Shown here: piece by piece, positions 2,287 to 64,000 of the stretch | Layout: the number at the start of each line of letters is the position of its first letter | Position numbering within the stretch: the first letter of the stretch is position 1 | Origin: Candidatus Nanopelagicales bacterium | GTDB taxonomy: Bacteria; Actinomycetota; Actinomycetes; S36-B12; CAIYMF01 | Assembly (NCBI GenBank): GCA_017848795.1 | Contig: JAFIHG010000050.1 | Span: forward strand, 1-64,000 | Length of the DNA: 64,000 bases | Direction of reading: 5' to 3' | The notes under the pieces: generated by a model | Databases searched by the model: none | The model's input: only the letters and a program-made list of their open reading frames with translations | What the model was told of the DNA's origin: nothing | Position numbers and translations under genes: made by a program

Positions 2287-4425
2287 GTGAGCGCTACGGG
2301 CTTGGGCGCCGCGCAGTCGCCGGACCTGCGCCCGCCCGGCAAGGCGACACCGCTCGGTGCCACCGTCACGCCGGACGGTGTGAACCTGGCGGTCTGGGCA
2401 CCGCAGGCCGAGCTCGTGGAGGCCTGCCTGTTCGACGAGGCGGGGCAGGAGCTGCGCGTCCCGCTGCTCGCCAACCATGATGGGGTCCATCACGGCTTCT
2501 TCCCCGGCGAAGGTCCGGGCCTGCGGTACGGGCTGCGCGCCCACGGTCCCTGGGACCCCCGCCGTGGTCAGCGCTTCAACCCCGCCAAGCTGCTCGTCGA
2601 CCCGTACGCCCGCGCGCTCGACGGAACCCTGCACTACAGCGACGCGCTGTGCGCGCACACTCCCGGGGACCGGAACGCCCGCGACGAACGGGACTCCGCC
2701 GCGCTCGTGCCGCGCTCGGTCGTCGTCGCGGATGCCTCGCACCAACCTCGCCCACCGCGACCCGGCACCTCCTGGAGCCGGACGGTGCTGTACGAGCTGC
2801 ACGTCAAGGGCTTCACCGCCCGGCACCCCCAGATCCCCGAACCTGTGCGCGGCACCTACGCCGGGCTCGCGCATCCGGCGGCGGTGCAACACCTCGTGGA
2901 CCTCGGCATCACCGCCGTCGAGCTGCTCCCGGTCCAGCACTTCGTCAGTGAGCCGGCGCTGGTGCGCCGCGGCCTCACGAACTACTGGGGGTACAACACG
3001 CTCGGTTACTTCGCCCCGCACGGGGGGTACTCCTCGTCCGGAACGCGTGGCGAGCAGGTGAGCGAGTTCCGCGCCATGGTCGACACGCTGCACGCTGCCG
3101 GCATCGAGGTGATCCTCGACGTGGTCTACAACCACACCTGCGAGGGCGGCGCGGACGGTCCGACGCTCTGCTTCCGTGGCCTGGGTGATGCCAACCACTA
3201 CAAGCTCGTCGACGGCGGCGAGACGTACTTCGATGCCACCGGGTGCGGCAACACGGTCGACGCCGGCGACTTCGGCGTACTGCGCCTGATCACCGACTCG
3301 CTGCGTTACTGGGTCACCGAGATGGGCGTCGACGGGTTCCGCTTCGACCTGGCCTCAGCGCTCGCGCGCGCCGAGCTCGCCTGGGACGCGCGCGCACCGT
3401 TCCTCGCCGCGGTGCACCAGGACCCGGTGCTGCGTACGGTCAAGCTGATCGCCGAGCCCTGGGACGTCGGCCCCGGCGGCTACCGCGTCGGCGAGTTCGG
3501 CCCGCCGTGGTCGGAGTGGAACGACAAGTACCGCGACACCGTCCGCAGCTTCTGGCGCGACGCGCCCGGTGACCGGACGGTGCTCGCCGACATGGGGTGG
3601 CGGCTCACCGGGTCGCAGGACCTCTACCACGCGCGTTCGCCGCGAGCGTCGATCAACTATGTGACCGCCCACGACGGGTTCACGCTGCGCGACCTGGTCT
3701 CCTACGACCGCAAGCACAACGAGGCGAACCAGGAGGACAACCGCGACGGCACCGACGACAACCGGTCCTGGAACCACGGAGTCGAGGGCGAGACGACCGA
3801 CGCGCCGGTGCGGGCCGCCCGCGCACGCTCGTCGCGGAACCTGCTCGCGACGCTGCTGCTGTCGACCGGTACGCCGATGTTGCTCATGGGCGACGAGCTC
3901 GGCAACACCCAACATGGCAACAACAACGCGTACTGCCAGGACAACGAGGTCTCCTGGATCGACTGGGAGCTCGACGACGACACGCGCGGTCTGCTGCAGT
4001 TCACCCGTGACCTCGTCGCCCTTCGCCGCGACCATCCGACGCTGCGCCAGAACCAGTTCTTCGAGGGCCGTCCCGACGCACCCGGGCTGCCGCCGGACCT
4101 GGCCTGGTTGACCGTCGACGCGACCCCGATGCCGGACGACGCCTGGCACGACCCGGGGACGCGGGTGCTGGTCCTGGCGCTGTCCGGCGAGCTCGGCGAG
4201 CGGGACCGCGCCGGTCGCCCGCTGCACGATGCCGCCTTCCTGATCATCTTGAACGGCAGCGACGACGACGTCGCGGTCGCGTTGCCCGAGCAGGTCCCCG
4301 GCGAGACGTACGCCCGGGTTCTCGACACGTTCCAGCAGACGGCGACGGGCGCTCCGCCGTACCATTCGGCAGGCGCACGCGCGACGGTCAGGGCGCAGAG
4401 CCTGGTGGTCCTGCGCGTGCAGTGA
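2287..4425 (+). CDS. glgX: Glycogen debranching enzyme GlgX (GH13 isoamylase type)
   Basis: A 712-residue GH13 enzyme with the order seen in GlgX: N-terminal CBM48-like domain (about 20-110), then the catalytic barrel. Visible catalytic elements are the region I block DVVYNH (D278), the nucleophile in GFRFDLA (D354), the acid/base in IAEPWD (E390) and the transition-state Asp in TAHDGFTL (D463). It hydrolyses alpha-1,6 branches of (limit-dextrin) glycogen. GTG start with AGGAGG about 7 nt upstream. The ABC exporter genes begin only 19 nt downstream, so a common transcript is likely although no functional link is obvious. TreX-like isoamylase is the closest alternative; the overall length fits GlgX. 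Confidence 0.93.
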   Translation: MSATGLGAAQSPDLRPPGKATPLGATVTPDGVNLAVWAPQAELVEACLFDEAGQELRVPLLANHDGVHHGFFPGEGPGLRYGLRAHGPWDPRRGQRFNPAKLLVDPYARALDGTLHYSDALCAHTPGDRNARDERDSAALVPRSVVVADASHQPRPPRPGTSWSRTVLYELHVKGFTARHPQIPEPVRGTYAGLAHPAAVQHLVDLGITAVELLPVQHFVSEPALVRRGLTNYWGYNTLGYFAPHGGYSSSGTRGEQVSEFRAMVDTLHAAGIEVILDVVYNHTCEGGADGPTLCFRGLGDANHYKLVDGGETYFDATGCGNTVDAGDFGVLRLITDSLRYWVTEMGVDGFRFDLASALARAELAWDARAPFLAAVHQDPVLRTVKLIAEPWDVGPGGYRVGEFGPPWSEWNDKYRDTVRSFWRDAPGDRTVLADMGWRLTGSQDLYHARSPRASINYVTAHDGFTLRDLVSYDRKHNEANQEDNRDGTDDNRSWNHGVEGETTDAPVRAARARSSRNLLATLLLSTGTPMLLMGDELGNTQHGNNNAYCQDNEVSWIDWELDDDTRGLLQFTRDLVALRRDHPTLRQNQFFEGRPDAPGLPPDLAWLTVDATPMPDDAWHDPGTRVLVLALSGELGERDRAGRPLHDAAFLIILNGSDDDVAVALPEQVPGETYARVLDTFQQTATGAPPYHSAGARATVRAQSLVVLRVQ

Positions 4426-62490: not shown

Positions 62491-64000
62491 GCACTACCGC
62501 CGCCAGCAGGTCCTCACGGCTGCCGTGCTGCGTGGCACCCGTCGCACGTGGGCGGCGATGGGCCGCGGCGACTGGGATGCCGCCTGGCGACGTGTCGGTC
62601 CGCGCCTGACGGTCCTCGTGGCCGCCGGGCAGCTCCGGTCGGCCGTCGAATCTGCGTCGTACGTGCCCGATGTGGCGGCCGAGGTCGGAATCGACCCGGA
62701 GTCGGTGGCACGGGTGCGTCCGTCCGGGTTCGCCGGGGTCGCGTCGGACGGCCGCCCGCTAGATTCGCTGCTCTACCAGTCGGTGACGACGGCGCGCACG
62801 TCCGGGCTGGACGCGGCCGGTTCGCTGGCCGCCGGTGAGCGGTTCCTCGAGATGGCCGTGCAGACGCAACTCGCGGACGCCGGTCGGGCCGCGGAGTCGG
62901 TGGCGATGACAGCGACCCCGGCGGTGACCGGGTACGTGCGGATGCTGAACCCGCCGTCCTGCTCACGGTGCGCTGTGCTCGCGGGCCGCTGGTACCGCTG
63001 GAACTCGGGCTTCCTACGCCATCCGCGCTGCTTCCCGGCTGGCGTGGTGGTGTCAGGCCCTGCGGTCGACGCGGCCACGCGGCGGTGGTACGAGGGCGAA
63101 CTCGTCGTCATCACGACTGCCGGTGGCGAGCAGTTGCCCGCCACCGGAAATCACCCGGTACTGACCGACCGTGGGTGGGTTCCGGCGAACCTGCTCATGG
63201 AAGGCGACAACGTAGTCCGCGGCACCGGTCGTGAGGGCGCTGTCCCCCTCGTGGTTCCACACGAACACCAGGTGCCATCCTGCATCGAGGATCTGTGGCG
63301 TCCGGACCGCATGGTGGCGCTTGGTGAGGTGCCAACCGCCGCCGAGGACTTCCACGGCGACGGGGGGTATGGCAAGGTCGACGTTGTACTTGCCGATCGC
63401 CTTCTGTGGAACGACGCCCATGCCACGAGTGGCGAGCTCGCCGAGCAGGAACAGTTCGCCGGGACTGTCGCAGAGCCCCTTCTGTTCGCGCAGTTGGGCA
63501 CGCCGGACGAGCGAGTCCAAGGGCTGAGTCGTGCCGCGGACGGCGTCATGGGCGGCGGCGGCCTGTTGTCGGCGCTCGTCAGCGGTCATGCGACGAGCGC
63601 GCACCTTGCCAGCGCGGGAGCGGTCTCGCGGCCGGAGGCCCTGTTCGACGAGGCGCTTGCGGATCGCCTCGCGGCTCACGTTGTAGCGGAGGCTGAGCGC
63701 GTACTCGCTCTCGCCGGCGCGGTATGCCGCCGCGATCTCGTCGGCGGGCAGCGTGAGGACCCGCCGCGGTGGGATGCCCCGGCGGGTCCGTTCACGATGG
63801 AGAGTCGTGGCGGATATGCCAGTCGCGGCGAGGATCTGCGCCTGCGCCTGTCCGGACAGGTAGCGCTTGATCGCGTCGTCGATGTTCGCCGGGTCGAGTG
63901 GAGTGGCCACGTCTACAACCTCACGTCAGTTGAGGGCTGGTATAGCGCTAATGGGTTGATTGTATCAAACTGCGATTGCAGGCATATCCCGGCCGCCGAG
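62468..64000 (+). CDS. MuF-type minor capsid protein interrupted by an intein (3' end cut off)
   Basis: The frame from ATG 62468 is open for 511 codons to the window edge. N-extein (1-187) is a helical head protein ending in the metal-binding motif PSCSRCAVLAGRWYRWNSGFLRHPR; C-extein resumes at residue 502 with CDCRHIPAAE. Joined, they read ..HPR-CDCRHIP.., the conserved MuF motif. Residues 188-501 between them are an intein. MuF proteins sit inside the head near the portal. The gene is expected to continue past 64000. Start lies inside the portal gene; no separate ribosome site is obvious. Confidence 0.88.
   Translation, partial: MLPRAATEHYRRQQVLTAAVLRGTRRTWAAMGRGDWDAAWRRVGPRLTVLVAAGQLRSAVESASYVPDVAAEVGIDPESVARVRPSGFAGVASDGRPLDSLLYQSVTTARTSGLDAAGSLAAGERFLEMAVQTQLADAGRAAESVAMTATPAVTGYVRMLNPPSCSRCAVLAGRWYRWNSGFLRHPRCFPAGVVVSGPAVDAATRRWYEGELVVITTAGGEQLPATGNHPVLTDRGWVPANLLMEGDNVVRGTGREGAVPLVVPHEHQVPSCIEDLWRPDRMVALGEVPTAAEDFHGDGGYGKVDVVLADRLLWNDAHATSGELAEQEQFAGTVAEPLLFAQLGTPDERVQGLSRAADGVMGGGGLLSALVSGHATSAHLASAGAVSRPEALFDEALADRLAAHVVAEAERVLALAGAVCRRDLVGGQREDPPRWDAPAGPFTMESRGGYASRGEDLRLRLSGQVALDRVVDVRRVEWSGHVYNLTSVEGWYSANGLIVSNCDCRHIPAAE
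63029..63970 (+). other. Intein (314 residues) in the MuF protein
   Basis: Starts with Cys188 (CFPAGVVVSG, block A), has the block B pattern PATGNHPVLTDRGWVPA (T226, H229), and ends with blocks F/G: HVYNLTSVEGWYSANGLIVSN followed by Cys502 as +1 nucleophile. The penultimate residue is Ser500 where most inteins have His. The insertion point splits the conserved zinc motif of the host protein. Its middle (about residues 250-480) is open on both strands: an endonuclease is encoded antisense. Confidence 0.88.
63053..63910 (-). CDS. Vsr/DUF559-like homing endonuclease encoded antisense within the intein
   Basis: A 285-residue protein entirely inside the intein on the opposite strand. Two HTH motifs (AIKRYLSGQAQAQILAATGIS; EIAAAYRAGESEYALSLRYNVSREAIRKRL) precede a PD-(D/E)XK domain of the Vsr type: SPGELFLLGELATRG (E152), NVDLAIPPVAVEVLGGGWH (D178, E187, H194) and RTPQILDAGWHLVFVWN. 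GTG start at 63910 with GTGAGG about 9 nt upstream. It should cut intein-less MuF alleles and drive homing. The sense strand stays open across it, so two proteins share the DNA. Confidence 0.82.
   Translation of the reverse strand: MATPLDPANIDDAIKRYLSGQAQAQILAATGISATTLHRERTRRGIPPRRVLTLPADEIAAAYRAGESEYALSLRYNVSREAIRKRLVEQGLRPRDRSRAGKVRARRMTADERRQQAAAAHDAVRGTTQPLDSLVRRAQLREQKGLCDSPGELFLLGELATRGMGVVPQKAIGKYNVDLAIPPVAVEVLGGGWHLTKRHHAVRTPQILDAGWHLVFVWNHEGDSALTTGAADYVVAFHEQVRRNPPTVGQYRVISGGGQLLATGSRDDDEFALVPPPRGRVDRRA

Follow-up and report, generated by a model that had tools for sequence, protein, structure and literature searches.

Can the splicing and the homing functions of a mobile intein be encoded on opposite strands of the same base pairs? 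The usual description of a mobile intein is of a single polypeptide whose splicing and endonuclease domains share one frame, and this arrangement is put in question by a capsid gene at the right end of the window (the whole 64,000-nucleotide stretch of DNA analysed here, part of a 158 kb contig in an assembly of 3.4 Mb). The gene is a MuF-type head morphogenesis ORF transcribed rightwards (62468–64387, the window ending inside it at 64000); it matches phrog_1522, a head maturation protease, at 1e-71 in a PHROG search, and upstream of it are TerL, then an SPP1-type portal. A preliminary description made from the sequence had claimed that this gene is interrupted by an in-frame intein with a TxxH block B and an NGLIVSN-C end, that the plus strand lacks LAGLIDADG and HNH motifs, and that a Vsr-like nuclease is encoded on the minus strand within the intein.

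The intein was recovered as described. It spans 63029–63970 on the plus strand and is 314 aa long, running from Cys1 to Asn314 and followed by Cys+1, with TGNH as block B, GHVYNL as block F (63905–63922, plus), and NGLIVSN, then C, at block G; as judged from the sequence, the Cys1, TxxH and Asn-Cys+1 junction of an intein are all present. The translation matches PF14890, and in an AF2 model the Hint ends have pLDDT values >90 and the middle is of low confidence; VIA comparison with the Mtu RecA intein identifies the Hint fold (Z 12.4, rmsd 1.7, 106 aligned). A family profile search of the plus strand gave a Hint match only, with no LAGLIDADG or HNH family match, in agreement with the earlier claim. 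Two other readings of the element were considered and dropped: a nested in-frame endonuclease, because the plus-strand middle is unconstrained (see below), modelled with low confidence and without a nuclease family match, and a group I intron, because the host ORF runs in frame through the element, the Hint domain is conserved, and an Rfam search over the gene gave no match.

The putative antisense homing endonuclease gene occupies 63053–63910 on the minus strand, with a GTG start at 63910 and a TGA stop at 63055–63053, and lies entirely within the intein. It encodes 285 aa, and the overlap is codon-in-register throughout, such that each plus codon XYZ is opposite a minus codon Z′Y′X′. Structure prediction of both translations places a nuclease fold on the minus strand and the Hint ends on the plus strand. 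The AF2 model of the minus protein (pLDDT 91.7) contains two helix-turn-helix (HTH) domains and a Vsr/I-Bth0305I-type nuclease domain, and VIA comparison with solved structures gives Z scores of 10.4 to Vsr, 9.6 to I-Bth0305I, and 9.2 to 3hrl. Pfam and PHROG searches with the single minus protein give weak nuclease matches, and the family profile and AF2 model were required for the assignment; the family profile matches 3r3p at E 1e-4 and 3hrl at 2e-6. The lack of any nuclease match had been named at the outset as evidence against an antisense nuclease, and nuclease folds do match; on the strength of the model and the profile, we assign the minus protein to the Vsr/EDxHD-type nucleases, with two HTHs, as had been claimed. 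The active-site segment (63329–63457, minus), delimited by conserved residues and by alignment to I-Bth0305I and 3hrl, contains E152 (63455–63457), N176 and D178 (63377–63385), E187 (63350–63352) and H194 (63329–63331). Among 211 nucleases D178 and E187 are invariant (211/211 each), and N176 (210/211), E152 (203/211) and H194 (188/211) are nearly so; E152, D178, E187 and H194 are the candidate counterparts, in this alignment, of the EDxHD motif positions of I-Bth0305I. The HTH part differs in family among the members. The top BFVD structural match of the nuclease model is A0A3G3BXE8 (297 aa, 24% identity, E 2e-17), which may be an annotated copy of the nuclease.

The element belongs to a large family. 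A tblastn search with the minus protein found 130 phage records, including phages of Gordonia, Salmonella, Escherichia, Klebsiella, Pseudomonas, Vibrio, Haemophilus and others, and in those inspected the nuclease is opposite the MuF gene. The family was widened by scans of viral contigs and bacterial genomes, with an intein alignment as the query for genome contigs, and its host genomes include Microbacterium, Actinomyces, Streptomyces, Paenibacillus, Chitinophaga, Anaerolineae, Planctomycetes, Rhabdochlamydiaceae and Acinetobacter, a range that extends from Actinobacteria to Chlamydiae with GC as low as 39%. The nuclease is antisense and in phase in 343/343 family loci (234 distinct proteins; two of the loci, L164 at a contig edge and the truncated L218, have nuclease fragments only), so that the proposal of a splicing domain and an endonuclease sharing base pairs in opposite directions holds for the whole family. 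None of the 343 loci has an intein without a nuclease or with a sense nuclease, and no full-length free-standing copy of the nuclease was found in 297 genomes. A minus frame closed over a conserved plus frame, which was to count against the antisense gene, was seen nowhere in the family, bar L218, in which both strands are truncated, and the one contig-edge fragment. The host protein is of MuF type in 6/6 tested (Pfam Phage_Mu_F/VG15), and the insertion site is always before a Cys, in an HPxC-RC context in most. All 322 delimited inteins end N|C (the search pattern permitted C, S or T), and 308 start with Cys, the other 14 having been given a Ser start by the delimitation rule. The L218 copy (Kitasatospora, about 3001–3363), with intein and antisense nuclease both truncated, appears to be decaying. 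The antisense nuclease is unannotated in every phage record inspected (L001, L201, L204, L205, L206, L208, L210), in which the MuF gene is annotated as hypothetical, as a head protein, or 'with inserted intein'.

Open antisense frames are common in GC-rich DNA, and at 68% GC the window intein could owe its minus-strand ORF to base composition and the codons of the plus protein, in which case only the intein would be real. We give this by-product explanation almost no credence, and consider it refuted by the low-GC relatives together with the substitution rates by codon position. First, when each gene was resampled synonymously from its own codon usage (ignoring the kinship of loci), the chance of an open antisense frame was about 6e-4 for the window and as low as 5.7e-13 in relatives of 39–50% GC, in which the frame is nonetheless open; unrelated inteins mostly have 14–39 in-phase antisense stops, with GC-rich exceptions. 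Secondly, divergence at plus codon positions 1/2/3 is.33/.28/.47 in the exteins,.17/.05/.23 in the Hint N part,.35/.15/.22 in the intein middle (63434–63790, plus) and.11/.10/.35 in blocks F/G; the order in the middle, with position 1 greater than 3 and 3 greater than 2, reverses that of the exteins and is the mirror signature of minus-strand coding. Thirdly, the substitution check on both strands that had been proposed gives pN/pS values, which are descriptive because the 90 pairs are not independent, of 0.51 on the minus and 1.14 on the plus strand in the middle (minus pN < pS in 90/90 pairs), 0.32 and 0.81 in the active-site part, 0.68 and 0.41 in Hint N, and 2.49 and 0.15 in F/G, which lies outside the nuclease. 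Hence constraint acts on both strands in the Hint N-blocks but on the minus strand alone in the middle; as read from these substitution patterns, purifying selection maintains the minus protein in its own reading frame. The nuclease fold with its invariant D and E also argues against a by-product.

A plus-strand DFHGD motif (63347–63361) is the codon mirror of the V-A-V-E-V strand of the nuclease and is conserved beyond the needs of the minus protein, with F in 102/111, H in 105/111, G in 107/111 and D in 107/111, minus-synonymous positions included. Because its conservation extends to positions at which the minus strand could change freely, the plus peptide seems to be constrained there too, although DNA-level constraints other than the plus peptide could explain the third-codon choice of some minus residues. 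Elsewhere in the overlap there is an inverted repeat, CCGGTGGCG/CGCCACCGG (window 63120–63128 and 63139–63147), and the peptides read across it are similar, QLPATG on the plus and QLLATG on the minus strand.

The preliminary description had also proposed that the nuclease has its own leftward expression, and matching signals are present within the splicing blocks; expression itself is predicted from them. In 84/108 loci the distance between nuclease start and intein end is exactly 60 bases, with the start opposite the block-F His, and in the window the His codon at 63908–63910 mirrors the start codon; this His is CAT, giving ATG, in 63/84 compared with 34% expected. A Shine-Dalgarno-like TGAGG (63919–63923, minus) mirrors the block-F Asn-Leu codons, and an extended −10 promoter-like TGATACAAT (63959–63967, minus) mirrors the block-G codons ATT GTA TCA, with 7/8 defined bases matching the consensus in this GC-rich member. 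Among 155 little-related members, the match to the extended −10 (TGnTATAAT) opposite block G averages 6.29/8 compared with 5.1 expected, and is perfect in 32/155 and in none at four control offsets. The motif occurs in two registers one codon apart, tracking the GIITHN and GLIVSN forms of block G, and a clade with block G ending in SSN has TTGACA-17-TATAAT instead, perfect in 9/18 (score 11.1 vs 7.6 expected). The SSN clade comprises L046, L075, L079, L082, L266, L276 and relatives, with the site antisense of the intein C-terminus. These are consensus matches, and three promoter solutions at one place argue for selection on promoter function, with the putative promoter, ribosome site and start lying inside splicing blocks G and F.

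It might be supposed that the element is now immobile and that the nuclease is kept only because its loss would damage the overlapping splicing blocks; the in-register overlap of the Hint N-blocks with the nuclease C-terminus would indeed make loss costly. We think this very improbable, because the nuclease-only middle (126–255) is also under minus-strand purifying selection and the promoter and Shine-Dalgarno signals are kept beyond coding needs. Comparison of close relatives likewise points to mobility. In the Kagunavirus phages Snoke and KMB36, whose exteins are 91.5% identical, family members are at two different MuF sites, and the site occupied in one is empty in the other; the MuF gene of fEg-Eco19, 93% identical to that of Snoke, is empty at both. 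In Brevibacterium AGM4 the HPAC-KC site is uninterrupted, and the intein-less MuF relatives that the preliminary description suggested looking for, precise empty alleles of the host gene, exist in both groups. In some pairs inteins and exteins also differ in their degree of identity: for example, L085 and L101 have exteins 95% and inteins 49% identical, and L079 and L082 have exteins 21% and inteins 60% identical. These alignments indicate exact presence and absence, two insertion sites, and replaced copies among close relatives.

A real antisense nuclease could instead have a role other than homing that benefits the phage or prophage: it might keep out competing phages, or its antisense transcription might regulate MuF. 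Some free-standing nucleases do act against rival phages, the promoter-like signals are the nuclease's own and lie opposite a late gene, and no family member has lost the nuclease; yet it is always confined to an intein preceding a MuF Cys, close relatives differ in presence, insertion site and copy as just described, and a homing endonuclease, I-Bth0305I, is a close solved relative, such that we regard a non-homing role as unlikely. The computed features are coding on both strands, the embedded signals, the two folds (nuclease and Hint), conservation of the catalytic residues, and presence/absence with site polymorphism. From them we infer with considerable confidence that the element is a mobile intein and that its homing endonuclease comes from a distinct antisense gene with its own expression; cleavage, splicing, transcription and homing are inferred as part of this reading. 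On the plus strand, MuF would be translated through the element and the end Hint blocks would splice the insert out, the middle being a tolerated linker, so that capsid assembly would be unharmed. On the minus strand, a host-type promoter in block G and the ribosome site and start in block F would drive the HTH-HTH-Vsr-like nuclease, which host polymerase could express independently of late capsid transcription. The nuclease would presumably cut intein-less MuF alleles in mixed infections at the HPxC insertion site, which we take as the homing site solely from the position of insertion, and repair of the break would copy the element into the cut MuF gene, spreading the intein together with the nuclease gene.

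In the Gordonia phages Lennon and Barsten, the MuF site that is occupied in Vivi2 holds an unrelated intein, in which the in-phase antisense frame codes for a LAGLIDADG protein (MKLDPVAAAYVAAFIDGEGTV...; L202 and L203, 2381–3205 in each), with a further example in a viral contig (L398, 2501–3325). The protein matches a cyanophage endonuclease (2e-6), I-MsoI (1.3e-5) and free-standing phage relatives, and has a weak Pfam match. In the middle of the element, the Lennon/Barsten intein and L398 are 57% identical on the minus strand and 34% on the plus. L409, also a LAGLIDADG relative but a free one, has a long antisense ORF; it was dropped as a further case as it is not an intein. With an apparently independent LAGLIDADG intein of this form, the antisense arrangement most likely evolved at least twice, as far as these comparisons indicate. 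This second case, the large conserved family and the expression signals in the splicing blocks all go beyond the preliminary description.

In the description of nuclease-bearing inteins in PMC8966425, the endonuclease is nested within the intein. The window intein shares with such elements (PI-MtuI RecA, TliVMA and PI-PkoII) the Hint domain, Cys1, TxxH block B, C-terminal Asn and Cys+1, a long insertion between blocks B and F, and a linked homing-type endonuclease, but its nuclease is outside the intein polypeptide, on the other strand, overlapping the Hint blocks themselves, and has its own promoter-like signals and start. I-Bth0305I shares the catalytic fold, the E...D...E...H arrangement and N-terminal DNA-binding modules, whereas here the nuclease is antisense inside an intein and its HTH front end varies across the family; similarly, the relatives of the Lennon/Barsten LAGLIDADG protein are free-standing endonucleases in other phages. 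We found no prior report of an antisense nuclease in an intein in the open-access literature searched. The closest precedent found is that of antisense homing endonuclease genes in nuclear rDNA group I introns, e.g. I-DsqI, which also lie opposite the host-gene strand inside a self-splicing element (PMC9548176); in an RNA intron of this kind dual protein coding does not arise, whereas here both strands code in mirrored codons and a splicing motif also acts as promoter and ribosome site. We think it likely that these inteins represent a distinct mobile architecture that arose on at least two occasions, at one and the same capsid-gene site but with nucleases of unrelated fold (Vsr/EDxHD and LAGLIDADG). 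Splicing and homing would be read from the two strands of shared base pairs, splicing motifs would also be the nuclease promoter, ribosome site and start codon, and homing could precede late capsid expression. With splicing and nuclease as separate proteins, nuclease timing would be freed from host-gene expression, and the mirrored codons would make nuclease loss costly. Long in-register coding on both strands, with two products that can each be interpreted structurally, is rare, and this case offers a natural test bed for overlapping-gene evolution; in the antisense nuclease the deposited phage genomes overlook a gene.

Other inteins were noted among the phage records. In Vibrio phage 1.238.A (L207, 2–2815 and 3353–3670) the TerL gene has one apparently complete intein and a second with its N- and C-parts in separate ORFs, resembling a fractured gene with a split intein. 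In Salmonella phage STP4-a (L209, 1646–4625) the gene for a uvsW-like helicase is in pieces, spread over several ORFs and containing an intein N-part; next to it is an ORF for a homing endonuclease.
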